Origin: Flavobacteriia bacterium
GTDB lineage: Bacteria; Bacteroidota; Bacteroidia; Flavobacteriales_D; Crocinitomicaceae
Assembly: GCA_016183815.1 (NCBI GenBank)
Contig: JACPDW010000036.1
Location: forward strand, 1 to 64,000
Reading direction: 5' to 3'
DNA length: 64,000 nucleotides
Positions within the stretch are counted from its first letter, which is position 1. The number at the start of each line of letters is the position of its first letter. Below are positions 41,110-60,207 of the stretch, piece by piece. Position numbers and translations under genes: made by a program. Below the pieces are notes generated by a model. It was not told the DNA's origin, did no database searches, and was given only the letters and a program-made list of their open reading frames with translations.

Positions 41110-42159
41110 ATGAGTAAAAGTAACAATGTTATAAAAGAAATTTTTTTATATCTCCTACTTAAATGGAAAATTGTAATTTCTGTTTGTATAATAGGGGGTG
41201 GTATAGGGTTGTTAATTTCTTTATTTAACAAACCTAAATTTGAATCAAAATTATCTTTTTCATTAGATTCATCTAGCATTTCATCTGGTTCAATAGGTGG
41301 TGGTATTGGAAATATTGCTAGTTCTCTTGGTTTTGGGGGAACAACTGGAGAAAGCTTATTTGAAGGTGATAATTTAATTGAGTTAATGAAATCAAAAAAT
41401 GTTATTATTAAATCTTTTTTATCTAAAATTCCGTATAAGAAACATAATTTTGTTGAGGAATATATAAATACTTATGAATTAAGATCTTCTTGGGAAGAGA
41501 AAAGCACATTAAAAAACATTAAATTTAATTTAAACCAAAACAGAAATAAATTTTCTTATGAACAAGATAGTATTTTATTTGAAATTTATGAAAGTTTTTT
41601 GGAAAAAAATATTAAAATTAAACAAATAAGTAATAAAATAAACATAATTAATATAACAGTGAAAACCAAAAGTCATGTTTTTACTAGATATTTTCCTGAA
41701 ATTCTTATAAAAAATCTAATCGATTTTTATACTGAAGTAAAAACCAAAAAAGCGAAATTAAATTACGATGTATTAAAAAAACAAACGGATTCTATTAGAG
41801 TAGCTTTAAATAATGCTATTTCATCAGTAGCAGCATCAAATGATAACATATTTGGACTTAATCCTTCAATGAATATTCAAAGAGTACCTTCTCTTAGGAA
41901 ACAAGTAGATATTCAAGCAAATACTGCAATTTTGAATGAATTAGTAAAAAATTTAGAATTAGCAAGGATTAGTTTGCTAAATAATACACCAATTATTCAA
42001 TTAATTGATGTTCCTCGATATCCAGTTGAAAAAATTTATACTAGAAAATTATACTTTATTTTTTTTGGAGGGTTAATTTCTGGTATATTTTTATTAGTTT
42101 ATTTATATTTTTCGGACATCAATTTTAAAAAAATTCTAAAATCAATTAAAAATGAGTAA
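41110..42159 (+). CDS. Chain-length determinant (Wzz-like) protein
   Basis: The 349-residue protein has two membrane helices, at ~21-38 ([19 protein letters not shown]) and ~325-342 ([20 protein letters not shown]). A periplasmic part with coiled-coil stretches lies between them, as in Wzz-type polysaccharide co-polymerases. A Gly/Ser-rich segment after the first helix (~57-80) may be a flexible loop. No tyrosine kinase domain is attached and none is next to it, so chain-length control would not use Wzc-type phosphorylation. It overlaps gmd by 8 bp. Confidence 0.85.
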
Positions 42160-43255
42160 AATCGCTTTAATAACTGGTATTACAGGACAAGACGGTGCGT
42201 ATCTTAGTGAATTCTTGTTAAAGAAAAATTATATTGTACATGGAATCAAAAGAAGGTCATCTAGCTTTAATACTGATAGAATTGATCATCTATACCAAGA
42301 TCCACATGTGAATAATCAAAATTTCATCCTCCACTATGGAGATATGACAGATAGTACTAATTTAATTAGAATTATTCAGGAGGTTAAACCAGATGAAATA
42401 TATAATCTTGCCGCCATGAGTCATGTTCACGTTTCTTTTGAAACACCTGAATATACTGCTAATGCAGATGGATTAGGTACTTTAAGATTATTAGAAGCTT
42501 TGAGAATACTTGGAATGGAAAAAAAAGTTAGAATCTATCAAGCTTCAACTTCAGAATTGTATGGACTTGTACAACAAGTACCTCAAACTGAAAAAACTCC
42601 ATTTTATCCAAGAAGTCCATATGCTGTTGCAAAAATGTATGCTTATTGGATTACAGTAAACTATCGTGAAGCCTATGGGATTTATGCATGTAATGGAATA
42701 TTGTTTAACCACGAATCACCATTAAGAGGTGAAACATTTGTAACAAGAAAAATTACAAGAGCGGTTGCTAAAATAGCCTTGGGTTTACAAGATAAATTAT
42801 ACTTAGGAAATTTAAATGCTCAAAGAGATTGGGGACACGCTAAGGATTATGTCAGAATGATGTGGATGATACTACAAGCTGACCAAGCTGAAGATTGGGT
42901 CATTGCAACAGGAAAAACTACCCCAGTTAGAGATTTTATTAAAATGGCCTTCAATGAAGTTGGTATTATTTTAGACTTTAAAGGTGAAGGAGAAAATGAA
43001 AAAGCTTATATAAAGGAATGTAATAATCCTGAATATCAAGTTGAAATAGGTAAAGAAGTTCTTGCAGTAGATAAACGCTATTTTAGACCAACAGAAGTGG
43101 ATCTTCTTATTGGAGATGCAACAAAAGCAAAAGAAAAACTAGGTTGGGTTCCAGAATGTTCTTTACCTGAATTGATTAAAGATATGATGAGCTCTGATAT
43201 TAATGTTATGAAAAAAGAAATTTATTTAAATAAAGGAGGCTTTTTAAAAAAATAA
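42152..43255 (+). CDS. gmd: GDP-mannose 4,6-dehydratase
   Basis: The 367-residue protein is nearly standard. It has [19 protein letters not shown] for NADP binding, [18 protein letters not shown], the catalytic region [30 protein letters not shown] with the Tyr-Lys pair, and [20 protein letters not shown]. It converts GDP-D-mannose to GDP-4-keto-6-deoxy-D-mannose, the branch point for GDP-L-fucose, GDP-colitose and related sugars. It is followed by an Fcl-type reductase and a ColD-like dehydratase, so the branch taken is probably colitose. Confidence 0.96.
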
Positions 43256-43265
43256 AAGGTAAATA

Positions 43266-44192
43266 ATGAAAAAAATTTTAATATTAGGTGGGAATGGAAT
43301 GGTTGGTAAAAATTTTATTGAAAATAATAACTCAAATAAAATTTGTATTTCTCCAAGTTCATCTGAATTAAACTTATTAGACTATAATGCATGCTTATCA
43401 TTTTTTAATGAATGCCAACCTGATGTGATACTTCATTGTGCAGGATTGGTTGGTGGTATACAAGCAAACATGAATAATCCAGTTGATTTTTTGTTGAAAA
43501 ATACAGACATTGGAAGAAATGTCGTATGGGCAGCTTATAATGCAAATATAAAAACATTGATTAATATTGGTTCTTCTTGTATGTATCCAAGAGATGCAGA
43601 AAATCCATTAAAAGAGGATTTAATTTTAAAAGGTGAGTTGGAACCTACAAATGAAGGTTACGCTTTAGCCAAAATATTTACACAAAGGTTATGTTCTTAC
43701 ATTAACAAACAATATCCTTCTTTTCATTTCAAAACTATTATTCCTTGTAATCTTTTTGGAAAATATGACAAATTTGAAGAATCAAAATCACATTTAATTC
43801 CTGCAATCATTCATAAAATACATCATGCAAAAGAAAATAATGAGAATGAAGTAGAAATTTGGGGTGATGGATTGGCAAGAAGAGAATTTATGTATGCTAA
43901 AGATTTAGCATTAATACTTTGGAAAGTAGTAGAAAATTTTGAAAATATTCCAGATGTAATGAATGTTGGTCTAGGTTATGACTATTCAATTTTAGAATAT
44001 TATCAAACTGTTTCAAAAGTATTAAATTATAATGGAAACTTTAAATTTAATTTAAACAAACCTGTAGGAATGAAACAAAAAGTTGTTGAAATCTCTAATT
44101 TGAAAAGATTAAATCTCTCTATCAATCATGATTTATCAAATGGAATAAAAGAAACGTATGATTATTATTTAACTCTAATTAATAAAAAATGA
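43266..44192 (+). CDS. fcl: GDP-L-fucose synthase family epimerase/reductase (Fcl or ColC)
   Basis: The 308-residue extended SDR has LILGGNGMVGKNFIE for NADP binding and INIGSSCMYPRDAENPLKE, with the Ser and the Cys used in epimerisation. EGYALAKIFTQRL carries the Tyr and Lys, and PCNLFGKYDKFEESKSHLIP follows. The family performs 3,5-epimerisation and 4-reduction of GDP-4-keto-6-deoxymannose to GDP-fucose. The homologue ColC does 5-epimerisation and reduction of the 3-deoxy compound to GDP-L-colitose. Because a ColD-like gene follows with a 4-bp overlap, the ColC role is at least as likely. The sequence by eye does not separate the two. Confidence 0.9.
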   Translation: MKKILILGGNGMVGKNFIENNNSNKICISPSSSELNLLDYNACLSFFNECQPDVILHCAGLVGGIQANMNNPVDFLLKNTDIGRNVVWAAYNANIKTLINIGSSCMYPRDAENPLKEDLILKGELEPTNEGYALAKIFTQRLCSYINKQYPSFHFKTIIPCNLFGKYDKFEESKSHLIPAIIHKIHHAKENNENEVEIWGDGLARREFMYAKDLALILWKVVENFENIPDVMNVGLGYDYSILEYYQTVSKVLNYNGNFKFNLNKPVGMKQKVVEISNLKRLNLSINHDLSNGIKETYDYYLTLINKK

Positions 44193-45364
44193 AATATCCT
44201 TTAGCAAGTGTTTCTTGGGACACAAAAGAATTCGAAGCTATGCAAAGTGTAATAAATTCTGGTGAATTTACAATGGGCAAAAAAGTAATAGAATTTGAAA
44301 ATAACTTCGCAAAATATTTTGGTAGTAAATATGCTTGTATGGTTAATTCTGGATCTTCAGCTAATTTGATTGCAATTGCAACTTTGTTTTATAGAAAAAA
44401 TAATCCTTTAAAACGAGGTGATGAAGTTATTGTACCTGCTGTTTCTTGGTCAACGACCTACTATCCTTTACAACAATATGGATTACATTGTAAATTTGTT
44501 GATATAGATATTGATACCTTAAATTATGATTTAGATTCTTTGGAAAAAGCTGTATCTGATTCAACGAAAGCAATTGTTGTTGTTAACTTGCTTGGAAACC
44601 CAAATGATTTCAATAAAATTAAATCAATAATTGGTAATAGAAAAATTGACATTATAGAAGACAACTGTGAATCTATGGGTGCTGAATATGATAATAAAAA
44701 AACTGGAACTTTGTCATTAATAGGTACATTTAGTTCGTTTTTTAGTCATCACATTTCTACAATGGAAGGTGGAATTATAGTGACGGATAATGAAGAACTG
44801 TATCAAATTATGCTTTGTCTTAGGGCTCACGGGTGGACAAGAAATCTTCCTGATGAAAATATGGTGAGTGGAACAAAATCTTCCAATCCATTTTATGAAT
44901 CGTTCAATTTTATACTTCCTGGATATAATGTAAGACCTGGCGAAATCCATGCAGCATTAGGAATAGAACAATTAAAAAAACTTGATTCTTTTATTAAAAT
45001 TAGAAGAAAAAATGCAAAAATATTTTTGAATGAATTTCAAAATCATCCATTTATAAAATTTCAAAAAGAAATTTCAAATAGTTCTTGGTTTGGATTTTCA
45101 ATGATTGTTTCAAAAAACTCTACAAAAAAAAGAGATGATTTAATAAACTTTTTAACTAGCAATGGTGTTGAATGTAGGCCGATTGTATCCGGAAATTTTT
45201 TAAAAAATCCAGTATTAAAATATTTTGATTATTCTGTTCACGGAAAGATAGTAAATGCTTCCGAAATTGATGATTATGGTTTCTTTATTGGGAACCATCA
45301 ATACGATTTAGAAACAGAAATTAAAGAGTTAAAAAAGTTAGTTAACTTATTTTTTGAACTATAA
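44189..45364 (+). CDS. colD: GDP-4-keto-6-deoxymannose 3-dehydratase-like PLP enzyme (ColD-like)
   Basis: The 391-residue DegT/DnrJ/EryC1-fold enzyme has VNSGSSANLIA, DEVIVPAVSWSTT and IEDNCESMGAEY. The position of the usual PLP-binding Lys is occupied by His: FFSHHISTMEGG, His187-His188. That Lys-to-His change is the hallmark of the sugar 3-dehydratases ColD and RfbH, which remove the C3 hydroxyl instead of transaminating. ColD is about 388 residues long, in agreement. With gmd and an Fcl/ColC gene directly upstream, the expected product is GDP-4-keto-3,6-dideoxymannose on the way to GDP-L-colitose. An RfbH-like reaction on a CDP-sugar is less likely since no CDP-glucose genes are present. 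Confidence 0.85.
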   Translation: MKYPLASVSWDTKEFEAMQSVINSGEFTMGKKVIEFENNFAKYFGSKYACMVNSGSSANLIAIATLFYRKNNPLKRGDEVIVPAVSWSTTYYPLQQYGLHCKFVDIDIDTLNYDLDSLEKAVSDSTKAIVVVNLLGNPNDFNKIKSIIGNRKIDIIEDNCESMGAEYDNKKTGTLSLIGTFSSFFSHHISTMEGGIIVTDNEELYQIMLCLRAHGWTRNLPDENMVSGTKSSNPFYESFNFILPGYNVRPGEIHAALGIEQLKKLDSFIKIRRKNAKIFLNEFQNHPFIKFQKEISNSSWFGFSMIVSKNSTKKRDDLINFLTSNGVECRPIVSGNFLKNPVLKYFDYSVHGKIVNASEIDDYGFFIGNHQYDLETEIKELKKLVNLFFEL

Positions 45365-46050
45365 TGAAAAATTATACAAAAATCACCCTTTTAATACCAA
45401 TGAAGGGTAATTCAGAAAGAGTTCCTAATAAAAATATGAGACTTTTTGATGGGAAACCCCTTTATCATGCAATTATTTCAGAACTATTAAATTCAAAGTA
45501 TATCACAAATATTATAATTAATACAGATAGTGAAAAAATCAAACAAGATGCTAATTTGAATTTCCCTTCTGTAATTATTGTTGATAGACCGATAGAAATT
45601 CAAGGAGATTTTGTACCTATGAATGAAATTATTGAATATGATATAAATCAAATTGAATCAGATATATACATTCAAACACATAGTACTAATCCATTACTTA
45701 AACACATTACATTGGATAATGCGATTAAAGCATTTATTGATGCAGATGGTAAATTTGATTCTGTATTTTCAGTAACTAGACTTCAAACTAGACTATATTG
45801 GGAAGACGGTAAACCTGTTAATCATAATCCAAATGAATTGTTAAGAACACAAGATTTACCTCCAGTATTTGAGGAAAATTCAAATTTTTATATTTTCACT
45901 AAGGAATCCTTTAAAAAAGTGGGTAAAAAAAGAATTGGACTTAAACCATTAATGTTTCCAATGAACAAAATTGAAGCTCAAGATATTGATGAGCCAGAGG
46001 ATTTTATTTTGGCAGAAACCCTTTATAAAGTAAGACATGATATACGATAA
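45364..46050 (+). CDS. Acylneuraminate/ulosonate cytidylyltransferase family protein
   Basis: The 228-residue protein has the CMP-sugar synthetase pattern: LIPMKGNSERVPNKNMRLF (nucleotide loop), NIIINTDSEKIKQDA, and THSTNPLLKHITLDNAIKAF in place of the QPTSPLR-like motif. IEAQDIDEPEDFILAE near the C-terminus gives the metal-binding Asp. It should activate an eight- or nine-carbon keto-deoxy sugar acid with CTP. No NeuB- or KdsA-like synthase is nearby to make Neu5Ac or Kdo, so the substrate may be unusual. The start overlaps the previous stop by one base (TAATG). Confidence 0.85.
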   Translation: MKNYTKITLLIPMKGNSERVPNKNMRLFDGKPLYHAIISELLNSKYITNIIINTDSEKIKQDANLNFPSVIIVDRPIEIQGDFVPMNEIIEYDINQIESDIYIQTHSTNPLLKHITLDNAIKAFIDADGKFDSVFSVTRLQTRLYWEDGKPVNHNPNELLRTQDLPPVFEENSNFYIFTKESFKKVGKKRIGLKPLMFPMNKIEAQDIDEPEDFILAETLYKVRHDIR

Positions 46051-46498
46051 GATTAATAATTGGAGAACTTATTTTAAATATCAAGTTTTTGAAGAAATAT
46101 TTGATTCTTTAAAAACTTATAATGTTGACACTGAAGATGGTGTTTATTATTATGATGGATATTACTTTAAAGTAATGTCATATGAAACTAAGGAAAATCC
46201 AACTATTATTGAGTCGCACTTAAAGGAAGTAGATATACAAATATTGTTAGCAGGTGCTGAAAATATAAAAATGTATCATCTGGAAGATTTGAAAGTAATA
46301 GAAGAATATAATGATCAGACTGATTGCATTTTTTATTCTTCAACAAAAAATCCTTATACAGAATTAACACTAATTCCAGATTATATGGCAATATTTTTTC
46401 CTAGTGATCCTCATCATCCTCAATTTAGAAGTGCTACTGGAGTTTCTTTTTTAAAAAAAATTGTAATTAAAGTTAATCTTAATGCCTTCCAAATATGA
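46037..46498 (+). CDS. YhcH/YjgK/YiaL family (sugar-acid anomerase-like) protein
   Basis: The 153-residue cupin-type protein carries the family signatures ESHLKEVDIQILLAGAENI and AIFFPSDPHHPQ, with conserved His and Glu metal ligands. One characterised member acts as an N-acetylneuraminate anomerase. In this position, 14 bp inside a CMP-sugar synthetase gene, it may supply the right anomer of a keto sugar acid for activation or use. The length is normal for the family and it is cytoplasmic. The exact substrate is inferred only from context. Confidence 0.85.
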   Translation: MIYDKINNWRTYFKYQVFEEIFDSLKTYNVDTEDGVYYYDGYYFKVMSYETKENPTIIESHLKEVDIQILLAGAENIKMYHLEDLKVIEEYNDQTDCIFYSSTKNPYTELTLIPDYMAIFFPSDPHHPQFRSATGVSFLKKIVIKVNLNAFQI

Positions 46499-47271
46499 AA
46501 AAAAAAATAAAAAAGTTAATTGGAAAAAAGTTTCTGAATTTTTTAAAAAAGTTACTATACAAGCGTATTGATGAACTTGATGTTATACATAATTATTTGA
46601 AAAGAATTAACTCCAATCATGGAGTGATGGTTGACGTTGGTGTACATTATGGTGAATCTTGTATCCCCTTTTTAAAAGACGGTTGGAAAGTATATGGTTT
46701 TGAACCAGATAAAGAAAATCAAAAGATTCTTAAAAAAGAAATTACTGATACTTCTAATTTTGTTCTATTTGATTATGCTTTATCAAATGAACCTGGTGAA
46801 ATGAATTTTTATGCATCAGAAGAGTCTACTGGAATTTCAAGTCTACTTAATTTTCACGAGACGCATATTATTTCAAATGTTGTAAAAGTTGAAACTTTAA
46901 AAAATATTATCGATCAACACAATATTCAAAATATTAAACTTTTAAAAATTGATGTAGAAGGTTATGATTATTTTGTTTTAAAAGGTTTTGATTTTGAAAA
47001 ACACACTCACCCAGAATATATTATATGTGAGTATGAAGATTTGAAAACTTCTAAATTGGGTTATAATGTTTTAGATATGATTGAATATCTTCAAACTATC
47101 GGTTACAAAGTTTTAGTGTGTGAATGGGAACCGATAATAAAATATGGTGGTCATCACAGATTTAACAAGGCAAAATTTTATCCATGTGATTTAAATCCTA
47201 AAGCTTGGGGTAATTTAATTGCGTTTAAAGATGAAAATTTCATCCAATTTGCTCTAAAAAAAATGAACTAA
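46495..47271 (+). CDS. FkbM family methyltransferase
   Basis: The 258-residue protein has the FkbM fold signatures: MVDVGVHYGESCIPFLKDGW (SAM-binding loop), VYGFEPDKENQKIL, VKVETLKNII and IKLLKIDVEGYDYFVLKGF. It should O-methylate a sugar or sugar acid with S-adenosylmethionine. It overlaps the anomerase-like gene by 4 bp and the aldolase gene by 1 bp, so it belongs to the same operon. The target is not known. The N-terminal ~30 residues are strongly basic. Confidence 0.88.
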   Translation: MKKKIKKLIGKKFLNFLKKLLYKRIDELDVIHNYLKRINSNHGVMVDVGVHYGESCIPFLKDGWKVYGFEPDKENQKILKKEITDTSNFVLFDYALSNEPGEMNFYASEESTGISSLLNFHETHIISNVVKVETLKNIIDQHNIQNIKLLKIDVEGYDYFVLKGFDFEKHTHPEYIICEYEDLKTSKLGYNVLDMIEYLQTIGYKVLVCEWEPIIKYGGHHRFNKAKFYPCDLNPKAWGNLIAFKDENFIQFALKKMN

Positions 47272-48056
47272 TGAAAAACATTACTCCAAATTGGTCATTA
47301 AAAGATAAATTAAAAAATAATCAGCTGACTTTAGGTTCTTGGTTAACAATCCCTCATCAATCGGTAGTAGAAATTATGGCAACTGCTGGTTTCGAGTGGC
47401 TTACTCTTGATTTAGAACATGCAGCTATCGATATTTCTCAAGCCATGAATATGATTGCTTTAATCCAAGGAAAAGGAATGAAGGCTTTGGTTCGTGTCAG
47501 TAAAAATGAAGAAGTAATCATTAAAAGAATGCTTGATGCTGGTGCAGATGGAGTGATTATTCCAACCGTAAAAAATGCAGAAGAAGCCAGACAAGCTGTA
47601 GATTTTGTTAAATATCCACCTGTAGGTAAAAGAGGTGTTGGTCTGAATAGAGCTCAAAATTACGGAACTGGTTTTGACGAATACCAAGATTGGCTAAAAA
47701 ATGAATGTGTCATTATTGTTCAAATTGAACACATTGAGTCAGTTCATAACTTAGAATCTATTTTAAATGTAGAAGGAATCGACGGAATCATTGTTGGACC
47801 TTATGATCTTTCTGCTTCTATGGGAATGCCTGGAAATTACGAACACCCAGATGTAGTTATTGCTTTAAAAAAAGTAGAAGAAACAACCTTAAGGATGAAA
47901 AAACCACTAGGATTTCATGTGATTCATTCAGATCATCAAAAAACATTGGATAAAATAAATGTAGGATATTCCTTTTTAGCATTTAGTATCGATTTCTTTT
48001 TCTTAGGTGACAAAGCAAGAGATGAAATGAATTTATTAAAAAGTAAAATTCAATAA
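47271..48056 (+). CDS. HpcH/HpaI family pyruvate aldolase
   Basis: The 261-residue protein is a class II pyruvate aldolase. It has LGSWLTIPHQSVVEIMATAG, WLTLDLEHAAID with the catalytic His, LVRVSKNEEVIIKRMLDAGA, PPVGKRGVGLNRAQNYG and QIEHIESVHNLE with the metal-binding Glu. GIDGIIVGPYDLSASMG supplies the second acidic ligand. Family members condense or cleave pyruvate with aldehydes to give 4-hydroxy-2-oxo acids. Inside a biosynthetic locus with a CMP-sugar synthetase it could build a keto-deoxy sugar acid from pyruvate and a sugar aldehyde. That direction is inference. Confidence 0.9.
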   Translation: MKNITPNWSLKDKLKNNQLTLGSWLTIPHQSVVEIMATAGFEWLTLDLEHAAIDISQAMNMIALIQGKGMKALVRVSKNEEVIIKRMLDAGADGVIIPTVKNAEEARQAVDFVKYPPVGKRGVGLNRAQNYGTGFDEYQDWLKNECVIIVQIEHIESVHNLESILNVEGIDGIIVGPYDLSASMGMPGNYEHPDVVIALKKVEETTLRMKKPLGFHVIHSDHQKTLDKINVGYSFLAFSIDFFFLGDKARDEMNLLKSKIQ

Positions 48057-48057
48057 A

Positions 48058-48933
48058 ATGAAAGTAGCAGTTTTTGGTGGGAGTGGTTTTCTTGGACTTT
48101 ATTTAGCTAAAGAATTATTGAGAAGAAATTATTGTGTGGTTATATTTGATATTGTTGATACTAGTTATACACATGAAAATTTAACTTTTTGCATTACAGA
48201 CATCTTAAATGCCAAATTAATTGAAGAACAAATAGTTGAAGGTCAATTTGATTATGTGTATAATCTAGCAGGTTTTGCAAATTTAGACAAAGCAGTTTTG
48301 GATCCATTTAGAACGATGGAACTAAATGTTTTAGGAAATATTAATATTCTCAACGCCTGTCTTAAAGCTAATATTAAAAGATTTATTTATGCAAGTAGTG
48401 CTTATGCGATGAGCGACAAAGGTTCTTTTTATGGTATAAGTAAACTCACATCTGAAAAAATAGTGGAAGAATATGCTGTAAAATTTGACCTTAAATTTAC
48501 CATTTTAAGATATGGTTCGGTATATTCAGAATTAGATTATGACAATAATTATATCTACAATCTAATAAAAAATGCTATTGATACAGGTAAAATTGAACAT
48601 GGTGGTGATGGAAACGAAATGAGAGAATATATACATGCTTCTGATGCCGCAAAACTTTCGGTCGATGTATTAAAAAGTGAAGATTTTGTTAATGAACATG
48701 TTATTTTTACTGGAATTGAAAAAATGAAACGTTCAGAACTATTTGAAGTCATAAATGAAATCCTAGGCAATAAAATTGAAATTACCTATAAAAACAGTAG
48801 CTATAATCACCATTATCGTTTTACTCCATATTCCTATTCTCCTACTTTAAGTAAAAAAATGGTTGCAAATCCTCATATTGACATGGGACAAGGTTTGTTA
48901 GAATGTATAAAAGCTGTTTATAATAATAAATGA
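48058..48933 (+). CDS. NAD-dependent epimerase/dehydratase (extended SDR)
   Basis: The 291-residue protein has VAVFGGSGFLGLYLAKELL for NAD binding. YVYNLAGFANLDKAVLDP follows, then YASSAYAMSDKGSFYGISKL, with the Ser and the Tyr-x-x-x-Lys, and ILRYGSVYS. It is a nucleotide-sugar or sugar-acid epimerase/dehydratase. The substrate is unknown. It lies 1 bp after the aldolase gene and overlaps the next gene by 4 bp. Confidence 0.88.
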   Translation: MKVAVFGGSGFLGLYLAKELLRRNYCVVIFDIVDTSYTHENLTFCITDILNAKLIEEQIVEGQFDYVYNLAGFANLDKAVLDPFRTMELNVLGNINILNACLKANIKRFIYASSAYAMSDKGSFYGISKLTSEKIVEEYAVKFDLKFTILRYGSVYSELDYDNNYIYNLIKNAIDTGKIEHGGDGNEMREYIHASDAAKLSVDVLKSEDFVNEHVIFTGIEKMKRSELFEVINEILGNKIEITYKNSSYNHHYRFTPYSYSPTLSKKMVANPHIDMGQGLLECIKAVYNNK

Positions 48934-49625
48934 GAAATATTGGAAATTTACTATCTTTAAGTAATTTAGAGGAATGGGTTAAAACTATTTGTACTATAAT
49001 TTCTGAAAGAATAACTAAAACCTTAGAATCAAGTGTTAATTTCAATATTGCAATTTCAGGTGGGAATACACCAAAACTTGTGTTTGAAGAGTTAATTAAA
49101 AATCAGTATTTGAAAAATGATAGTTGGAAAAAAGTAAATTTCTTTTGGGTCGATGAAAGAATGGTTCCTATTAATCATCCTGAAAGTAATTTTGGTAATG
49201 CAATGAGATTTTTATCGCAAATTCCTGCTAACTTTTTCCAAATGTATGATGAAAATATTGGGTTAGAAGCTTCTATTGTAAATTATTGCAAACAATTAGA
49301 AGCTGTTCCAAAAAAAGGGAACTTTCCGTTTTTTAATTTAATGTTACTAGGAATGGGCGATGATGGTCATACTGCATCACTATTTCCCAATACTAAAGGT
49401 TTATTAGAAAATAAAAGCTTTGTAATTTGTAACGAAGTACCACAATTTAATACTTCAAGAATTACCTTAACTTTTCCTGTAATTAAAAATTCAGATGAAC
49501 TTTTGATACTAATTAATAGAGAAAAGGTAAAGTTGTTGCATGAAATAATAGATTATAAGACAAATTATCCCATTGAAAAATTATTTGATGGAGGAACAAA
49601 TATAACATGGTTATACCATAATTGA
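48930..49625 (+). CDS. 6-phosphogluconolactonase / sugar-phosphate isomerase family protein
   Basis: The 231-residue protein has the NagB/Pgl fold motifs FNIAISGGNTPKLVFEEL, VNFFWVDERMVPINHPESNFG and NLMLLGMGDDGHTASLFPNT. The GMGDDGHTASLFP motif is typical of 6-phosphogluconolactonases. In a polysaccharide operon it may hydrolyse a lactone of a sugar acid or isomerise an amino-sugar phosphate rather than serve the pentose phosphate path. It is coupled to the epimerase gene by a 4-bp overlap. Confidence 0.85.
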   Translation: MRNIGNLLSLSNLEEWVKTICTIISERITKTLESSVNFNIAISGGNTPKLVFEELIKNQYLKNDSWKKVNFFWVDERMVPINHPESNFGNAMRFLSQIPANFFQMYDENIGLEASIVNYCKQLEAVPKKGNFPFFNLMLLGMGDDGHTASLFPNTKGLLENKSFVICNEVPQFNTSRITLTFPVIKNSDELLILINREKVKLLHEIIDYKTNYPIEKLFDGGTNITWLYHN

Positions 49626-49629
49626 AAAC

Positions 49630-50274
49630 ATGATAAAAAATATTTTTTTTGATTTTGATGGTGTTTTGGCGGAATCAGTTAATGTTAAAACCGAAGCATT
49701 TAAGAATTTGTATTTACCATTTGGTGAAGAAATTGCTAACAAAGTAGTTGAACATCATTTAGCACATGGTGGAATTAGTCGATTTGAAAAAATTAAAAAA
49801 TATCACCAAGATTTTTTGGGAATTGAGTTAAGTGAAAATGAAGTCTTTCATTGGGCAGAGAAATTTTCTGAATTGGTATTAATAGGTGTCATTGAATCAC
49901 CAGAAGTAAAAGGAGCGGAGGATTTTCTTAAAAAGAATTTCGAGAATTATCAATTTTGGGTAATAACAGGTACACCTACTGAAGAAATTAAAATAATTTT
50001 AGAAAAAAGAAACTGGAACAGCTATTTTAAAGGTGCTTTTGGCTCACCTGAGAAAAAAAATCATTGGACTGAATTTTTGATTGAAAAGTACGATATTAAT
50101 AGAAAAGAAACAGTATTTGTCGGTGATGCAACAACTGATCAAGAAGCAGCATACTATTCAAAGCTTCATTTTATTTTGAGAAGAAATGAAGACAACAAAC
50201 ATTTATTTAAAAACTATAAAGGATTTGAATTAAATGATTTAACAAATTTAAATGAAATTTTAAAATCAATCTAA
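49630..50274 (+). CDS. HAD family phosphatase
   Basis: The 214-residue HAD hydrolase has NIFFDFDGVLAESVNVKTEA (nucleophile Asp and general acid Asp), VITGTPTEE (motif II Thr), and KKNHWTEFL (motif III Lys region). VFVGDATTDQEAAYYSK is motif IV. It should remove a phosphate from a small phosphosugar or sugar-acid phosphate, comparable in position to the phosphatases of Kdo and sialic acid pathways. It lies 4 bp after the 6PGL-like gene and 1 bp before the dehydrogenase gene. Confidence 0.9.
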   Translation: MIKNIFFDFDGVLAESVNVKTEAFKNLYLPFGEEIANKVVEHHLAHGGISRFEKIKKYHQDFLGIELSENEVFHWAEKFSELVLIGVIESPEVKGAEDFLKKNFENYQFWVITGTPTEEIKIILEKRNWNSYFKGAFGSPEKKNHWTEFLIEKYDINRKETVFVGDATTDQEAAYYSKLHFILRRNEDNKHLFKNYKGFELNDLTNLNEILKSI

Positions 50275-50275
50275 A

Positions 50276-51223
50276 ATGAGCATAAAATTATTACTTACTT
50301 CCACTTCTTTCACTGATGCAAAAGGAGTACATCAAGACTTATTAAATAAACAAGGTTTTGATATAGATGTGATGAGAGGTCCATTGTTTGATTATGAATT
50401 GAAACCCATCATAGCAAATTATGATGCGGTGATTTGTGGAGACGATGAATATACTGCTGAAATACTTGAAATAGGTAAAGCTGGCAAGTTGAAGTATATC
50501 TCAAAATATGGAGTTGGACTAGATAAAATTGATCTTAAAAAAGCTAAAGAACTTGGAATACCTGTAACAAATTGTCCAGGTGTGAATCAAGTTTCTGTTG
50601 CAGAACATGTTTATGCCTTATTGTTAAGCTTCGTTAAAAATATACATTTAGAATATAACATAACAAAAGACGGAGGATGGAAAAGACACGTTAGTACAGA
50701 AATTTATGGAAAAACATTAGGAATTGTTGGACTTGGAGCTATTGGTAAAGAAGTGGCTAAAAGAGCAACTTGTTTTGGTTTAAATGTGATAGCATTTGAC
50801 AAATTTGTTAGTGCTGATTTTATCAACGAACATCCATTTATTAAATTAGCTGAAAACTTTGAAGAAATAGCCTCAAAATCAGACATTATTACGCTTCATG
50901 TTCCTCACACACCAGAAACAGAATCAATAATTAATGCTCAAATTATCAACGAAAAATTAAAAAAAGGAGTAATAATAATAAACACAGCTAGAGGAAAATT
51001 AGTTAATCTAGAAGACTTAATAAAAGGGTTAGACAGTGGAACAATTGGAGGATATTTGGCTGATGTATTAGACATTGAACCAATGCCAGAAAATTATGTC
51101 TTAAAAGATAAAGAAAATGTATTAATCACCCCACACATTGGATCTAGAACTTATGAAAGTGTTCAAAGACAGGGTTTATTTGCTGTTCAAAATCTGATTA
51201 AATTACTTAAAAATAATGAATAA
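50276..51223 (+). CDS. D-isomer-specific 2-hydroxyacid dehydrogenase
   Basis: The 315-residue protein is of the phosphoglycerate dehydrogenase type. It has VTNCPGVNQVSVAEHVYALL, the NAD motif GIVGLGAIGKEVAKRA, TLHVPHTPETESIINAQ, INTARGKLVNLEDL with the catalytic Arg, and VLITPHIGSRTYESV with the catalytic His. It interconverts a 2-keto acid and a D-2-hydroxy acid with NAD. There is no ACT domain. In this operon it might make or use the acid that feeds the aldolase step. It overlaps the next gene by 8 bp. Confidence 0.9.
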   Translation: MSIKLLLTSTSFTDAKGVHQDLLNKQGFDIDVMRGPLFDYELKPIIANYDAVICGDDEYTAEILEIGKAGKLKYISKYGVGLDKIDLKKAKELGIPVTNCPGVNQVSVAEHVYALLLSFVKNIHLEYNITKDGGWKRHVSTEIYGKTLGIVGLGAIGKEVAKRATCFGLNVIAFDKFVSADFINEHPFIKLAENFEEIASKSDIITLHVPHTPETESIINAQIINEKLKKGVIIINTARGKLVNLEDLIKGLDSGTIGGYLADVLDIEPMPENYVLKDKENVLITPHIGSRTYESVQRQGLFAVQNLIKLLKNNE

Positions 51224-52247
51224 ATTTATTATTATTTTTATTATACTATGTAATTACTGTTTTTCTCAAAACTATACAGGAAAATTAATTCTCACAACTA
51301 GATGGTTTCATCCAAGAAACTCTATGGATACGTTGAGTACTTTAAAAGCAATTCGAGATTTTAAACCTTCAAGAATAGATTGGGTTTACACGAATGATTC
51401 AAATGTGACAAATATTTTTAAAAAGTTGAATATTGCTTATAGTTTAACTGCAAACCCAATGTGCCCTGACTCTTCAGGCTATACAACACAAAAATTAAGA
51501 ATTAAAACAATAAACGGTGAAACTTATATTGCGCCATGGATGAAAAGTTGGAAAATTAAAACTCCCTATTGGGGATGTGTAAACAATCCTGAATTTCAAA
51601 AATTATTCTTAGATTACACAAAATCCTTAGTTAAATTAGGTCCTGATGGTATTATGGTTGATAACCCAGAATTTAATGCTAGACTTGAAAGAGACAAATT
51701 GATTGGTTGTTTTTGTGATCATTGTGAAAGAAAATTTATTAATAAAAAATTTAGATACAAAAGAAATAAAAATAAATTAGAAGAAGAAATTAAAACTTTA
51801 ATCGAAAATTCAAAAGATAAAAATTTTAAAAAAAATGAATTACAAATTAAATATGAGGAATTTCAAATTAATTCAGTTACTAAATTTTTGGCTAATTGGA
51901 AAAAGGAATTATTAAAAACTAATCCTAATCTTAAGTTTTTCTGTAATAATTACAACGGTGAGTGGAGAAAATATCATTTAATTTTTGATGGTGGTATCGC
52001 TGAAATCACTGAAAGCAATATTAATGACAAGAAACTTGATGAATTATATAAGTTATCTGATAGTTTAAAAAAATCACAACTATTTAATTGTAATTCTGGA
52101 GATTTCTCTTTACATGAAAAATTGCTTATTTATAACTTAAAACACAATAGAGATATTTTAATACCATGGGATTTATTTATTTTAGGAGAAAAAAATCGAT
52201 TTTATATGGATGAAAAAAAATTCAATGAAATTATCAATGAATACTAA
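51216..52247 (+). CDS. Exported glycoside-hydrolase-like protein (TIM barrel), possibly shortened
   Basis: The 343-residue protein has a signal peptide (FIIIFIILCNYCFSQ). KLILTTRWFHPRNSMDTLST follows, and then PDGIMVDNPEFNARLERDK, and GCFCDHCERKF, a Cys-rich element typical of hypothetical TIM-barrel glycosidases. ITESNI and ILIPWDLFILGEKNRFYMD are near the end. It would act in the periplasm or outside the cell, perhaps trimming the polymer. From memory, proteins of this kind usually continue for some distance past the PWDxF motif, so the C-terminus may be lost. The 143-bp gap downstream shows no continuation I can read. No enzyme class can be assigned. Confidence 0.7.
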   Translation: MNKFIIIFIILCNYCFSQNYTGKLILTTRWFHPRNSMDTLSTLKAIRDFKPSRIDWVYTNDSNVTNIFKKLNIAYSLTANPMCPDSSGYTTQKLRIKTINGETYIAPWMKSWKIKTPYWGCVNNPEFQKLFLDYTKSLVKLGPDGIMVDNPEFNARLERDKLIGCFCDHCERKFINKKFRYKRNKNKLEEEIKTLIENSKDKNFKKNELQIKYEEFQINSVTKFLANWKKELLKTNPNLKFFCNNYNGEWRKYHLIFDGGIAEITESNINDKKLDELYKLSDSLKKSQLFNCNSGDFSLHEKLLIYNLKHNRDILIPWDLFILGEKNRFYMDEKKFNEIINEY

Positions 52248-52390: not shown

Positions 52391-53137
52391 ATGAAAATAA
52401 AATTAATAAAAAAAATAATATCGTTTTTAATTATCATTTTGAAATATAAAAATTTTAAAAAGAAAAAAATTTTAATTTATACTGATTCAAGAGGATATAA
52501 TGTTATTGGAAAATTTGGAAAGATTCCATTTGATTCATATATTTTTCAACTTTGTTTTAAGTACAATGTAGATTATTTCATTTGCCCAGAAAAATATACT
52601 ACAATTGTTGATTTCTTAAATTATATAAATGAAATTGATACAAATAAATATGACTTCATTATTATGCATTGTGGTGTGGTTGATTTTTCACCAAGACCAT
52701 TGACAAATATATCAAATGTTAAAGAAAGTAAAAAAGGGAATAAAACATTTGACCAATTGTTCAATTTAAATCAAGAATATTATGATAATCCATTTGAAAC
52801 TGAATATAATAATGAAAAAACTATAACGTTATATTCAACAAAATATCTTGAGTCACACATTATTCCACATTTAAAAAAGATAAAAAATCTTATTTGGATA
52901 AACTCAAATAAATTTGTTTTTGGTTGGGAAGGTAATTATACAAAAGGAAGACCAAAAAATATAATGCAAACAGTAAATGATTTTGATTCTGTTATGTCTT
53001 ATCATATAAAGAATTTTATCGATTTAAAGTCATGGGATGACAATACAATAAAAGATTTAACAATTGACAATATCCATTTTACAAAAGAAGGATTCTATGA
53101 AATTTATCAATTAATTAAAAAAGAAATAGAAAAATGA
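52391..53137 (+). CDS. SGNH/GDSL-like hydrolase-fold protein
   Basis: The 248-residue protein starts with a short hydrophobic stretch (IISFLIIILKY) that may anchor it. ILIYTDSRGYNVIG follows, with the Ser of block I. DFIIMHCGVVDFSPRP is block III and LTIDNIHFTKEGFYEI block V, with Asp and His. This is the layout of an SGNH esterase or acyltransferase fold. In a polysaccharide locus such proteins often add or remove O-acetyl groups. The substrate is unknown. It overlaps the first DUF115 gene by 4 bp. Confidence 0.72.
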   Translation: MKIKLIKKIISFLIIILKYKNFKKKKILIYTDSRGYNVIGKFGKIPFDSYIFQLCFKYNVDYFICPEKYTTIVDFLNYINEIDTNKYDFIIMHCGVVDFSPRPLTNISNVKESKKGNKTFDQLFNLNQEYYDNPFETEYNNEKTITLYSTKYLESHIIPHLKKIKNLIWINSNKFVFGWEGNYTKGRPKNIMQTVNDFDSVMSYHIKNFIDLKSWDDNTIKDLTIDNIHFTKEGFYEIYQLIKKEIEK

Positions 53138-54000
53138 TAAAGAAATTTTTAAAAACCATTTTTTATAAAGTAGTTAGTCCATATGCTTATTTTGGAAGTG
53201 TCCCTAAATGGAAACAATTTTTCATAAGTCTAAGATACATCTTAGCAAGTAAAGGTATAATACTCAATAGAAATGTGAGACAATTAAAAAAAATTAAAAA
53301 TAGTCATCAAGGACAAAGATGTTTTATTATAGGGAATGGACCATCTTTGAATAAAATGGACTTAACAAAGCTTAAAAATGAAATCACATTTGGTGTAAAT
53401 GCTATTTATTTAAACTATGAAAAAATGAATTTTCATCCAACTTATTATGTAGTTGAGGATATTTTTGTAGCAGAAGATAGAGCAGATGAAATAAATAATT
53501 ACAAACAGCCTAAAATTAAATTTTTTGGAAATTATTTAAGAAAATATATAAAAAAAGATGAAAAAACTGTTTTTATGAACCTAATTAGAAATTATTCCGA
53601 CATTGATAATTTTCCATATTTCTCTACCAATTGTTTAAAAGATTTAGGCGTTGGTGGATCTGTTACATACGTATGTCTAGAACTAGCTTTCTACATGGGT
53701 TTTAAAGAGGTTTATATGATTGGTTTTGATCATAATTATGTTATTCCGAATTCTGTCATTATTACAAATGAGCGTATTACTGGTTGTGATATATTGTCAA
53801 CCGAAGATGATGTTAATCACTTTCATAAAGATTATTTTGGAAAAGGATATAGATGGCATGACCCTAAAGTAGATCGTATGGAAGTTGGATTTTCTAAAGC
53901 AAATGAGATTTATTCAAAGCATGGAAAAAAAATATTTAATGCTTCTGTTGGGGGTAAACTTGAAGTTTTTGAAAGAATAGATTATAATTCCATATTTTAA
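53134..54000 (+). CDS. DUF115 / MptE-like protein, GT42-like motifs (paralogue 1)
   Basis: The 288-residue protein contains FIIGNGPSLNKMDLTKL and ITFGVNAIYLNYEKMNFHPT. GVGGSVTYVCLELAFYMGFK, YMIGFDHNY, DDVNHFHKDYFGKGYRWHDP and IFNASVGGKLEVFERI follow. The family is annotated as DUF115 or 6-hydroxymethylpterin diphosphokinase MptE-like. The GNGPSL loop and the later NHF..DYF element recall the GT42 sialyltransferases, where a GNGPSL motif binds CMP-sugar and a His acts as base. Two paralogues lie at 56315 and 59419. A glycosyltransferase role is inferred. The N-terminal ~50 residues are basic and hydrophobic, perhaps membrane-associated. Confidence 0.8.
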   Translation: MIKKFLKTIFYKVVSPYAYFGSVPKWKQFFISLRYILASKGIILNRNVRQLKKIKNSHQGQRCFIIGNGPSLNKMDLTKLKNEITFGVNAIYLNYEKMNFHPTYYVVEDIFVAEDRADEINNYKQPKIKFFGNYLRKYIKKDEKTVFMNLIRNYSDIDNFPYFSTNCLKDLGVGGSVTYVCLELAFYMGFKEVYMIGFDHNYVIPNSVIITNERITGCDILSTEDDVNHFHKDYFGKGYRWHDPKVDRMEVGFSKANEIYSKHGKKIFNASVGGKLEVFERIDYNSIF

Positions 54001-54881: not shown

Positions 54882-56318
54882 ATGTTAAAACAAAAAATAA
54901 TTTCTATTTGGAATTCACCTACTCTAATGACATGGTTAAGTTATTCGACTAAATCACTAAGTCTTTTACTTGTCACACCTTTAATCATTACCAAATTAAC
55001 AGAGACAGAAATTATTATTTGGTACCTAATGGCAACTTTTGTATCGATGGCGGGTGTTGTAGATTTTGGATTTAGAAGCACTTTTATAAGATTTATATCA
55101 TACGCAAATGGAGGAGCAAAAGATTTGATAAACCCATTAGAATCAAAAAATAATACTAGTGAAGTAAATTGGGAGCTAATTGATAAACTTTATTTTCATA
55201 TGAGAAAAATATACCTTACATTATCTGTTTTTCTCTTTTTTATACTCGTTATTATTGGATATTTTAGTCTAAAAAAAATTGTTTCTAATTACTATAATCC
55301 TTCTCAAATTTGGATTAGCTGGTTAATTATTTCTCTAACCTTAAGTATTGATTTTTACTGCAAAGTTTATTATAATTATATTGAAGGATTGGGCAAGGTT
55401 GCAATTGTAAGACGTATTGAAAGTTTTTTTAAAATTGGAACTATTTTTTCTCTTTTTGCAGTTCTAATAATTTTTAACAATATATTGAGTTTATCAATTG
55501 TAATTGGTATTGGCTACATTTTAAATACAGTAAGAAATTCATATTTATCAAATAGAATTTTTGATAATAAAAAGAAACAGTTTAAAGAAACAGAATTTAA
55601 TTTTCAGTTTTTCAAAGAAATTTGGAAGCCAGCATGGAAAACTGGTTTATCTGGTATATTCTCAATTGGTCTGATTAATTTTTCCTCAATCATTTTTGCC
55701 CAAGTAGGAACTCCTTCTGTTGTAGCTTCATACATGTTTGCAATTAGAATTATTACCGAAATTAGAATGTTTTCTAATGCACCTTTTTACAGCAAATTAC
55801 CTCTACTCTCTAAGTTAAATGCACAGAATAAGAAAGTAGAATTCATAAAGGTTGCAATAGGAGGAATTAACAAGAGTCATTTTACTTTTATCATAAGTGT
55901 GATATTAGTAAATATTTTTATAAAAACTATACTACTTACCATAAATAGTCAAATTAGTTTTGTCGATACCAAACTATGGTTTCTGATCTGTTTTGCATAT
56001 TACTTTCACCTATATGGGGCCTTTCACCTACAACTATATTCTACAAACAATAAAATAATCGCTCACATAGCAGATTTCGTTTCAGGGATAATTTTTGTTT
56101 TAACTTCATATTTTTTATTCCCTTTTTTAGGAATATACACTCTTCCTATAGGAATGTTATGTGCATATTTAGGTTTTTATAGTTGGTTTACCGCATATAA
56201 ATCCTTAAATAGTTTGAATATGTCTTTTCTTCAATTTGAGAGAAAAACTTCATTTCTCCCCTTTTCAATCTTAATTATATATTGTATCTTTGTGACCCTA
56301 TTTACAAAATATTCATGA
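54882..56318 (+). CDS. Polysaccharide flippase (Wzx/MATE-like)
   Basis: The 478-residue inner-membrane protein has about 12 hydrophobic segments. The opening TWLSYSTKSLSLLLVTPLII and GVVDFGFRSTFIRFISYANGG resemble polysaccharide transport proteins of the Wzx type. A long polar loop (~75-100) separates the second and third segments. It should move the undecaprenyl-linked repeat unit across the inner membrane. Together with the polymerase at 58099 and the Wzz at 41110 it indicates a Wzx/Wzy-dependent pathway. The 3' end overlaps the next gene by 4 bp (ATGA) and contains a candidate promoter. Confidence 0.88.
   Translation: MLKQKIISIWNSPTLMTWLSYSTKSLSLLLVTPLIITKLTETEIIIWYLMATFVSMAGVVDFGFRSTFIRFISYANGGAKDLINPLESKNNTSEVNWELIDKLYFHMRKIYLTLSVFLFFILVIIGYFSLKKIVSNYYNPSQIWISWLIISLTLSIDFYCKVYYNYIEGLGKVAIVRRIESFFKIGTIFSLFAVLIIFNNILSLSIVIGIGYILNTVRNSYLSNRIFDNKKKQFKETEFNFQFFKEIWKPAWKTGLSGIFSIGLINFSSIIFAQVGTPSVVASYMFAIRIITEIRMFSNAPFYSKLPLLSKLNAQNKKVEFIKVAIGGINKSHFTFIISVILVNIFIKTILLTINSQISFVDTKLWFLICFAYYFHLYGAFHLQLYSTNNKIIAHIADFVSGIIFVLTSYFLFPFLGIYTLPIGMLCAYLGFYSWFTAYKSLNSLNMSFLQFERKTSFLPFSILIIYCIFVTLFTKYS
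56285..56292 (+). promoter_or_regulatory. Candidate -7 box TATCTTTG inside flippase 3' end
   Basis: A strong TAnnTTTG match ends 22 nt before the ATG at 56315. It could give the second DUF115 gene and those after it their own promoter. It also argues for the ATG at 56315 rather than the TTG at 56282. Confidence 0.45.
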
Positions 56319-57121
56319 ATTATATCAGTCAACAAAATTTACCAGATAGTCTCAATGCTTATAGGATATCAATGGGAATACTATTTAATAGAATTAAATG
56401 GGATTTAAACCTAAAATCATGGAAAAGTAAAAAGTACTTCAGTCAAAATCATACTAAGTACAATGGAAAAAAGGCTATTATACTATGTAATGGTCCTAGC
56501 TTGAATAGTGTAGATTTTAAACTTCTTAAAGAAAAAAACATTTATACAATAGGATTAAATAAAATTAATCTTTTATTTGAAAACACAGATTTTAGACCGA
56601 ACTTAATTGTTGCTATAAATAAACTAGTAATTGAACAAAACATAGAGTTTTATAAAAACACAGACATTGAGCTTATTTTAGATAGTTCATGTGCAAATTT
56701 ATTTAATAGTAAAAAAATGAATATTCATTTCGTACATTCACTTCCTTTGCAATTAAAATTTGCCAGAAATATTAAAGAATCGATTTGTCAAGGATATACT
56801 GTTACATATGTTGCTTTGCAGATAGCTTATCATTTAGGATTTTCTGAAGTGGCTTTAGTTGGATGTGACCATAATTTTACCACCAAAGGCTCTTCTAATA
56901 TGACTGTAAGGGCTGAGGATAAAGACCCTAATCATTTTTCTCCAAATTATTTTAGTAATGGAGTTAAATGGCAATTACCCGATTTATTAGGTTCAGAGTT
57001 ACATTATAAATTAGCTAATGAATATTATGAATCAAATAATCGAAAAATTTATAACGCTACTGATGGTGGTAAATTAGAAATTTTTGAACGAAAAACTTTA
57101 ATAGACTATATTAATGAATGA
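56315..57121 (+). CDS. DUF115 / MptE-like protein, GT42-like motifs (paralogue 2)
   Basis: The start ATG at 56315 overlaps the flippase stop (ATGA). The 268-residue protein carries IILCNGPSLNSVDFKLL, IYTIGLNKINLLFENTDFRP and QGYTVTYVALQIAYHLGFS. VALVGCDHNF, DPNHFSPNYFSNGVKWQLPD and IYNATDGGKLEIFERK follow. It matches paralogues 1 and 3 motif for motif, so all three should do related chemistry, probably sugar transfer. The first Gly of the GNGPSL loop is Cys here (CNGPSL). The substrate is unknown. Confidence 0.8.
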   Translation: MNYISQQNLPDSLNAYRISMGILFNRIKWDLNLKSWKSKKYFSQNHTKYNGKKAIILCNGPSLNSVDFKLLKEKNIYTIGLNKINLLFENTDFRPNLIVAINKLVIEQNIEFYKNTDIELILDSSCANLFNSKKMNIHFVHSLPLQLKFARNIKESICQGYTVTYVALQIAYHLGFSEVALVGCDHNFTTKGSSNMTVRAEDKDPNHFSPNYFSNGVKWQLPDLLGSELHYKLANEYYESNNRKIYNATDGGKLEIFERKTLIDYINE

Positions 57122-59418: not shown

Positions 59419-60207
59419 ATGTTTATAAAACGCTTTCATCCAAAAAGATTAATTCCTGGAATTTTTAGAAGAATCTTAGAAAAAAAATATAACTTTCTAT
59501 GGAATAATTCTCTTCTTGGGAAAAATAATAAATCTTTTATATCAAATATCAAAAATAAATTTAAAGATGAAAAACTTTTCTTAATAGCCAACGGTCCTAG
59601 CTTAAAGGATATGGATCTAACAGTTTTAAAAGACAAACACGTTATGTGTATGAATCGCTTTTATATTTATTTTGATAAAATTGGTTTCACTCCTGAGTTT
59701 ATAGTTTGCGTGGAAGATTTTGTACTAGAACAGTTCGCAGATGATTTCAATAAATTAAATATTAAATATAAATTTATGAATTGGAGAAAACATAAAATAA
59801 TTCCTAATTCTAATTTTTTAAAGGAATCTTTCGCTTTTAATCCATTTTTTCAAACAGATTTAACAAAACCTACACATTTTGGTGGTACAGTTACTTTTGC
59901 TTGTCTTCAATTAGCTTATTATTTAGGTTTTAAAGAAGTCATTATTGTTGGTATGGATCATAGTTTTAAAGAGAAAGGTATAGCTAATAAAATTGAAGTG
60001 AGAAAATATGAAAAAGATGAAAGTCATTTTGATGCTAATTATTTTCCAAAAGGTATGAAGTGGAAACTGCCTGATCTTGTAAAGTCAGAAATTAGTTATA
60101 ATATTGCCAAAAATATCTACGAAAATAGTGGCAGAAAAATTATTGATTGTACAATAAAAGGTAAATGTACAATATTTGAAAAAGGGGAATTTTCTAATTT
60201 TATTTAA
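59419..60207 (+). CDS. DUF115 / MptE-like protein, GT42-like motifs (paralogue 3)
   Basis: The 262-residue protein has FLIANGPSLKDMDLTVL, VMCMNRFYIYFDKIGFTP, FGGTVTFACLQLAYYLGFK, VIIVGMDHSF, DESHFDANYFPKGMKWKLPD and IIDCTIKGKCTIFEKG. It follows the pattern of the paralogues at 53134 and 56315, with an Ala in place of the first Gly of the loop and a less conserved C-terminal GGKLE motif. The MNRFYIYF segment is close to the CNQFYFE segment that I recall from the GT42 enzyme CstII. The N-terminus is strongly basic, which suits a peripheral membrane protein. A transferase role is inferred. Confidence 0.8.
   Translation: MFIKRFHPKRLIPGIFRRILEKKYNFLWNNSLLGKNNKSFISNIKNKFKDEKLFLIANGPSLKDMDLTVLKDKHVMCMNRFYIYFDKIGFTPEFIVCVEDFVLEQFADDFNKLNIKYKFMNWRKHKIIPNSNFLKESFAFNPFFQTDLTKPTHFGGTVTFACLQLAYYLGFKEVIIVGMDHSFKEKGIANKIEVRKYEKDESHFDANYFPKGMKWKLPDLVKSEISYNIAKNIYENSGRKIIDCTIKGKCTIFEKGEFSNFI

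Follow-up and report, generated by a model that had tools for sequence, protein, structure and literature searches.

The window analysed here, positions 1 to 64,000 (forward strand) of contig JACPDW010000036.1 from the assembly GCA_016183815.1 of a Flavobacteriia bacterium (Crocinitomicaceae), carries a Bacteroidota surface-polysaccharide locus with genes for Poly_export and Bac_transf sugar transferase proteins, a UDP-glucose/GDP-mannose dehydrogenase, gmd, an fcl-like gene, a DegT-family gene, a flippase-like gene, Wzy_C and WecG. Within it lies a block of eight tightly packed genes that probably directs the synthesis of a cytidine monophosphate (CMP)-activated ulosonic acid without a phosphoenolpyruvate (PEP)-dependent synthase, for use by transferases encoded in the same locus. 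The open reading frame (ORF) listing of the window places all eight genes on the + strand at the coordinates given in a first-pass annotation, and the spacing described there (overlaps of 1-14 bp, gaps of at most 4 bp) was confirmed: successive ORFs overlap by 14, 4, 1 and 4 bp or are separated by gaps of 1, 4 and 1 bp, and the next gene, starting at 51216, overlaps the last ORF of the block by 8 bp. Pfam and NCBIfam searches agreed with each of the family calls, recognizing CTP_transf_3, DUF386/YhcH, FkbM, HpcH_HpaI, Epimerase, Glucosamine_iso/6PGL, HAD_2 and 2-Hacid_dh. Since the cytidylyltransferase, YhcH and aldolase did not reach NCBIfam equivalog cut-offs, their names are to be read at the family level. 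Catalytic residues are intact across all families of the block in alignments of related loci. The genes are as follows:

45364..46050, + strand: core gene 1, PF02348 CMP-sugar (ulosonate-type) cytidylyltransferase of its own subfamily (Pfam/NCBIfam)
46037..46498, + strand: accessory gene, YhcH/DUF386 anomerase-like protein (PF04074, 1.2e-29)
46495..47271, + strand: optional decoration, FkbM-type methyltransferase (Pfam)
47271..48056, + strand: core gene 2, class II HpcH/HpaI 2-keto-acid aldolase with the signature H216 and Y178 (Pfam, alignment)
48058..48933, + strand: core gene 3, GalE-like extended short-chain dehydrogenase/reductase (SDR), a probable sugar dehydrogenase or epimerase (Pfam)
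48930..49625, + strand: lactonase slot, 6-phosphogluconolactonase (6PGL) family, elsewhere a PF04199 hydrolase (TIGR01198)
49630..50274, + strand: core gene 4, HAD-family phosphatase (Pfam)
50276..51223, + strand: core gene 5, D-2-hydroxyacid dehydrogenase, similar to phosphoglycerate dehydrogenase (PGDH) but without its phosphate-binding Arg (Pfam, alignment)

With the synthetase as seed, a scan of a genome collection returned at least 570 relatives, from which 80 loci were kept; together with four further loci these formed a census set of 84, and hidden Markov models (HMMs) were run on their ORFs in all frames (individual loci, of this set or of other searches, are cited below by L numbers). 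As these loci also served to build the HMMs, the resulting figures count members and are not independent proof. The aldolase was found in 71/84 loci, the dehydrogenase in 75/84, the GalE-like SDR in 61/84, the HAD phosphatase in 60/84, a PF04199 hydrolase in 43/84, an MptE-like transferase in 30/84, YhcH in 24/84 and 6PGL in 15/84, and all five core families were present together in 56/84. The first-pass annotation had suggested a genome search for the same eight genes; the set indeed recurs in many phyla, but the shared core comprises five genes, namely cytidylyltransferase, aldolase, dehydrogenase, SDR and HAD phosphatase. The observation is real and under-described, wider than stated and centred on a different core. 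Moreover, the arrangement is not a chance line-up, since this genome of 3.2 Mb contains a single HpcH/HpaI gene that passes the family cut-off, that of the locus, yet aldolase and synthetase pair in 71/84 loci.

By record title, carriers belong to Bacteroidota, Campylobacterota, Deferribacterota, Desulfobacterota, Chloroflexota, Nitrospirota and Spirochaetota, and further to Bdellovibrio-type and gammaproteobacterial organisms and a Clostridium; the closest genomes among the matches listed are Bacteroidota metagenome-assembled genomes. Flavobacterium akiainvivens and Polaribacter glomeratus are examples of environmental carriers that can be cultured. An alphaproteobacterial plasmid carries aldolase, synthetase, phosphoglycerate-dehydrogenase-like, HAD and SDR genes consecutively and an MptE-like gene on the same replicon, plasmid matches from E. 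coli and Enterobacter are about 30% identical, and phage records gave no match. For all core families the pairwise distances are mutually correlated (0.27-0.66 over 54-70 loci, 0/500 permutations, host relatedness uncorrected), so the core set is inherited or transferred largely as a unit. Minimal sets consist of synthetase, aldolase, dehydrogenase and HAD only (L095, L096) or of the first three only (L114). A second, independent seed, the HAD profile searched against 395 Bacteroidota genomes, identified 22 carriers; among the 20 regions fetched, the aldolase was present in 10, the dehydrogenase in 8 and the GalE-like SDR in 7, and the HAD family also occurred in loci without the remaining genes of the set. 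Some of these loci contain other PF02348 enzymes, either KdsB-like (L157, L170) or NeuA-like (L163, L167, L169). As the same enzymes stand beside these synthetases, the link to CMP activation is independent of one synthetase subfamily, and the association of the biosynthetic enzymes extends to CMP-ulosonate-type synthetases as a whole.

Several loci depart from this layout. In L102, L118 and L123, Pfam searches on representatives detected a SIS_2 isomerase, a GFO/IDH oxidoreductase and a dehydroquinate-synthase-like gene next to synthetase, aldolase, dehydrogenase and an adh_short SDR. A split transketolase directly follows synthetase, aldolase and SDR in L121 (12452-14172), and L174 adds TAL_FSA and SIS genes. 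An HMGL-like aldolase-family protein, recognized by Pfam in L160 (4206-5756) and by sequence similarity in L167 (11205-12746), is encoded beside the HpcH/HpaI aldolase, synthetase and HAD in loci from which the dehydrogenase is absent, which is possibly a sister pathway.

The source genome (3.24 Mb) is 100% complete, and NeuB (PF03102) was not found in it, the sole match being weak and within a protein of the 3-deoxy-D-arabino-heptulosonate 7-phosphate (DAHP) synthase type; the claim that no NeuB-type synthase is present was thus upheld for locus and genome alike. The locus has neither a dedicated NeuB nor a dedicated KdsA synthase and so lacks the mark of a PEP-dependent nonulosonic acid or 3-deoxy-D-manno-octulosonic acid (Kdo) pathway. 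In the whole genome PF00793 matched two proteins, neither of them in the locus: one resembles a DAHP synthase extended by a mutase-like tail; the other appears to be a DAHP-type synthase and shares an operon on contig C19 (C19:293074-293790) with a KdsC-like phosphatase. As the PF00793 search found no separate KdsA-type gene, the latter protein could possibly serve as Kdo-8-phosphate synthase. A KdsB-like gene lies outside the window on the same contig as the locus (C4:67.7 kb), and its product is 24% identical to the locus synthetase across half the length. Since the genome has this KdsB-like gene of its own, the locus synthetase is probably not a Kdo enzyme.

The cytidylyltransferase reached its best NCBIfam score with PseF (94.6 against a cut-off of 205.7), and its nearest solved relatives are CMP-N-acetylneuraminic acid (Neu5Ac) synthetases. 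The nucleotide and metal residues R19, K23, N24, Q104, D207 and D209 are conserved in 79-80/80 sequences; the enzyme thus carries the nucleotide-binding R/K, the Q104-type residue and the two metal Asp of a PF02348 CMP-ulosonate cytidylyltransferase. The aldolase scored best with HpaI (192 against a cut-off of 369) and is closest to pyruvate aldolases. It shares sequence family, metal residues and catalytic residues with HpaI, GarL, YfaU/RhmA and the hydroxyketoacid aldolase SwHKA: E49, H50, R75, E153 and D179, which supply the catalytic His/Arg and the metal Glu/Asp of class II HpcH/HpaI aldolases, are conserved in 80/80. However, it stands in a biosynthetic and not a catabolic setting, and two positions differ from HpaI, GarL and YfaU. 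Tyr178 is present in 80/80 aldolases where those enzymes have Ala/Ser, and His216 in 76/79 (Phe in L160, L162 and L167) where they have Leu (L212 in HpaI), the pocket residue of the pyruvate-specific subgroup. Because of these replacements the pocket is not that of a standard pyruvate aldolase, the altered side being that of donor or acceptor. In SwHKA, aromatic residues in place of a conserved Leu are credited for promiscuity towards pyruvate analogues, hydroxypyruvate included (PMC10099721). Pyruvate had been assumed as the donor in the first-pass scheme, an assumption with which the near-invariant His in place of the pocket Leu does not sit well.

The dehydrogenase keeps the catalytic set R239, E268 and H287 found in PGDH and in glyoxylate/2-ketogluconate reductases. 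In PGDH an Arg-Ser pair anchors the phosphate, whereas the locus enzyme has in its place Gly at position 55 (69/71) and a variable residue. With 75 of 84 loci against 71, the dehydrogenase matches the aldolase in constancy, and it is retained in 10 aldolase-free loci. The HAD protein, with D8, D10, K143, D166 and D170 conserved, occurs in 60/71 aldolase loci versus 0/13 aldolase-free loci of the synthetase-seeded set; a general rule that HAD occurs only with the aldolase was rejected, as it is broken by the HAD-seeded loci L164 and L169. Two fusions, each a single case, were observed. L107 encodes a natural HAD-dehydrogenase fusion of 535 aa, and L157 (9681-11453) a cytidylyltransferase-like/dehydrogenase fusion of 590 aa, absent from its relatives examined, whose first part is without the usual nucleotide motif while a second, intact KdsB-like gene lies nearby.

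In the SDR, G7xxGxxG13, Y125xxxK129 and R189 are conserved. The GalE-like type is replaced by an adh_short SDR in 11 loci, and both together were never found in the 84 loci. The product of the neighbouring gene belongs to the 6PGL family as judged by TIGR01198 (160 bits against a cut-off of 124). None of the 15 loci with 6PGL overlaps with the 43 that have a PF04199 hydrolase, an exclusivity with a naive probability of 1e-7 within SDR loci (relatedness uncorrected), and the two often share one position, between SDR and HAD. As these hydrolases are unrelated and replace each other, the slot points to a lactone step, lactone opening being the simplest reaction that both families would have in common; the 6PGL-like protein of the first-pass annotation would thus be one of two interchangeable lactonases. 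In a Thalassovita locus an SMP-30 gluconolactonase lies beside an adh_short SDR. Lactonase genes are nearly always accompanied by an SDR, and 11 SDR loci have no lactonase; this gene content is consistent with a lactonase that acts downstream of the SDR and can be spared. YhcH was found in 24 loci with the aldolase and in none without it. Its residues E59, H61, D66, Q68, E75 and H126 are conserved, and it shares family PF04074 and conserved putative metal-binding residues with the sialic acid anomerase NanQ, but its score with the N-acetylneuraminate anomerase model NF040884 (76.8) is below the cut-off of 160. FkbM occurs in only 7/80 related loci, so methylation, a pathway step in the first-pass scheme, is not part of the shared pathway.

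The idea that a CMP-activated ulosonic-type acid forms without NeuB is well supported, the HpcH/HpaI aldolase being the likely C-C bond former, and the set recurs in many genomes. For this pathway we tentatively put forward hydroxypyruvate as the donor, at somewhat less than an even chance. HAD and then the D-2-hydroxyacid dehydrogenase would convert a (phospho)-2-hydroxyacid into a 2-keto acid, in the simplest case glycerate into hydroxypyruvate, for the aldolase to couple with a sugar aldehyde. A second pair, for redox chemistry and lactone opening, may consist of the SDR and the lactonase-type hydrolase and would set or trim the sugar; YhcH would interconvert anomers, the cytidylyltransferase would add CMP, MptE-like proteins would transfer the sugar, and FkbM would methylate it in some strains. 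We infer all substrates, the donor and the order of steps. A non-pyruvate donor such as hydroxypyruvate is favoured because the dehydrogenase recurs no less regularly than the aldolase, is in one case fused to HAD and accompanies an aldolase with a pocket His; the hydroxypyruvate model explains both the joint travel of dehydrogenase, HAD and aldolase and the unusual pocket. The more specific claim of a cross-phylum route to non-3-deoxy CMP-2-ulosonic acids, in which hydroxypyruvate from a dedicated HAD and dehydrogenase is aldol-added to a sugar aldehyde, is possible but doubtful.

Several observations weigh against this proposal, the substrates of which are predicted only. In the CMP-Neu5Ac synthetase of N. 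meningitidis, R165 forms a salt bridge with the Neu5Ac carboxylate (PMC2901514). The corresponding residue of the locus synthetase is Thr162 (79/80 in the alignment of 80 sequences), so that it lacks the carboxylate-binding Arg of CMP-Neu5Ac synthetases proper and the acid would be bound differently or not be a classic ulosonate. In AbHpaI, Leu214 lines the aldehyde site (PMC8560999); by position it probably corresponds to the Leu at the His216 site, and H216 may therefore reflect the acceptor and not the donor. H216 was likened to F210 of SwHKA by description and not by direct alignment. Furthermore, 3-phosphoglycerate itself is disfavoured as a direct substrate of the dehydrogenase because the PGDH Arg is missing. 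Synthetase and dehydrogenase occur without the aldolase in 10 loci, most with an adh_short SDR, the aldolase occurs without the dehydrogenase in six loci, several on short contigs, and L164 and L169 contain dehydrogenase, SDR and HAD without an aldolase. The hydroxypyruvate version also leaves the roles of SDR and lactonase unexplained.

A PEP-synthase-free CMP-ulosonate pathway is common to the three main models, which differ in the tasks of dehydrogenase, SDR and aldolase, and lineages may use different versions. The first-pass scheme, rather unlikely but a live option among the three, lets pyruvate and a phosphorylated sugar aldehyde form a 3-deoxy-ulosonate phosphate, which HAD dephosphorylates and the SDR epimerises before CMP is added, the dehydrogenase being auxiliary. 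This model best accounts for the association of aldolase, HAD (60/71 versus 0/13) and YhcH (24 versus 0) in the synthetase-seeded loci, and it agrees with the closeness of the aldolase to pyruvate aldolases and with the sugar-phosphate enzymes of variant loci (TAL_FSA and SIS in L174, transketolase in L121, SIS in L102, L118 and L123). However, it gives no role to the lactonase slot or to a dehydrogenase that is present in 75/84 loci and fused to HAD in L107, and H216 is unlike pyruvate aldolases; the PEP-synthase-free CMP-ulosonate part of the scheme stands. An oxidative route, likewise rather unlikely, would begin with oxidation of an aldose (phosphate) by the SDR; the resulting lactone would be opened by 6PGL or PF04199, and HAD and dehydrogenase would yield a 2-keto-aldonate of the same length for CMP activation, the aldolase epimerising, remodelling or serving a side branch. 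Such a route best accounts for the SDR-lactonase pairing, with the zero overlap of the two hydrolases and the 11 SDR loci that have no lactonase, and for the aldolase-free variants, which combine synthetase, dehydrogenase and adh_short SDR, often with PF04199 or with an SMP-30 lactonase nearby; L164, with SDR, 6PGL, HAD and dehydrogenase, has no aldolase within 18 kb, and the dehydrogenase is the common part of the L107 and L157 fusions. Against it, the near-universal aldolase (71/84) is left without a clear task and sets without SDR or lactonase exist (L095, L096, L114).

A nucleotide-linked sugar as the substrate of SDR and dehydrogenase, with aldolase, HAD and 6PGL as a separate catabolic or precursor branch co-transcribed by happenstance, is improbable: the nearest relatives of the SDR are UDP-glucose 4-epimerase and dTDP-glucose dehydratase, with the Arg189 region kept, but the correlated inheritance of all families across phyla and the small intact sets favour one pathway. 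An ordinary Kdo or sialic-type locus with NeuB or KdsA encoded elsewhere is very improbable, for the genome appears to make Kdo (the KdsB-like gene on C4, the DAHP-type synthase beside the KdsC-like phosphatase on C19) but has no NeuB while complete, and the KdsB-like gene is distinct from the locus synthetase.

The CMP-ulosonate made by the preferred, PEP-synthase-free pathway could be used by three MptE-like proteins encoded downstream, where a further gene of the locus directly follows the block:

51216..52247, + strand: secreted TIM-barrel glycosidase-like protein (predicted fold; co-conserved in four related loci)
53134..54000, + strand: MptE-like/GT42-like glycosyltransferase, candidate user of the CMP-sugar (PF01973)
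56282..57121, + strand: second MptE-like transferase (L043:282-1121), 33% identical to the 53134 gene product
59419..60207, + strand: third MptE-like transferase (L043:3419-4207), 31% identical to the 53134 gene product

The profile of the 53134 gene product matches the GT42 sialyltransferase Cst-II (E 5e-5). In searches with its AlphaFold model (pLDDT 82.7) the top PDB match is the Maf glycosyltransferase 5mu5 with a modest TM-score of 0.48, and a CMP-bound human sialyltransferase ranks seventh, also among modest TM-scores. This predicted, distant similarity to sialyltransferases and Maf transferases fits a CMP-ulosonate donor. The secreted-looking product of 51216-52247 has no Pfam match, and in L066 and L083 the genes of its relatives separate HAD from dehydrogenase; its predicted TIM barrel, from a moderate model (pLDDT 71), resembles the PelA hydrolase domain, GH191 and GH31. 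Upstream of the block, 42152-45364 encodes gmd, an fcl-like protein and a DegT-family protein in which the position of the pyridoxal phosphate lysine appears to be His (SFFSHHISTMEGG). The last of these resembles the ColD/RfbH type of sugar 3-dehydrase, which suggests GDP-colitose in the same polymer.

To our knowledge, all characterised CMP-ulosonate pathways use PEP-dependent synthases. With those for Neu5Ac, Kdo, legionaminic and pseudaminic acid the locus shares CMP activation by a PF02348 enzyme, a phosphatase in some cases and putative use by sialyltransferase- or Maf-like proteins, but it differs from them in that NeuB is absent and an aldolase of the class II HpcH/HpaI type is present together with a 2-hydroxyacid dehydrogenase. 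A search of the open literature, with subscription literature outside its reach, found no paper describing this gene set. Among known sugars, the 3-deoxy-pentulosonic acid of Klebsiella K38 is a possible match for the product. If our reading is correct, a second chemical logic, based on an aldolase and a 2-hydroxyacid dehydrogenase, would exist beside the PEP synthases in a widespread gene set, and hundreds of genes whose annotation stops at 'acylneuraminate cytidylyltransferase family' or at 'phosphoglycerate dehydrogenase' would gain a function. It would moreover lead one to expect unfamiliar acidic sugars on the cell surface across many environmental phyla and provide enzymes for making such sugars, which, if the donor is hydroxypyruvate, would represent a new class of surface sugar.

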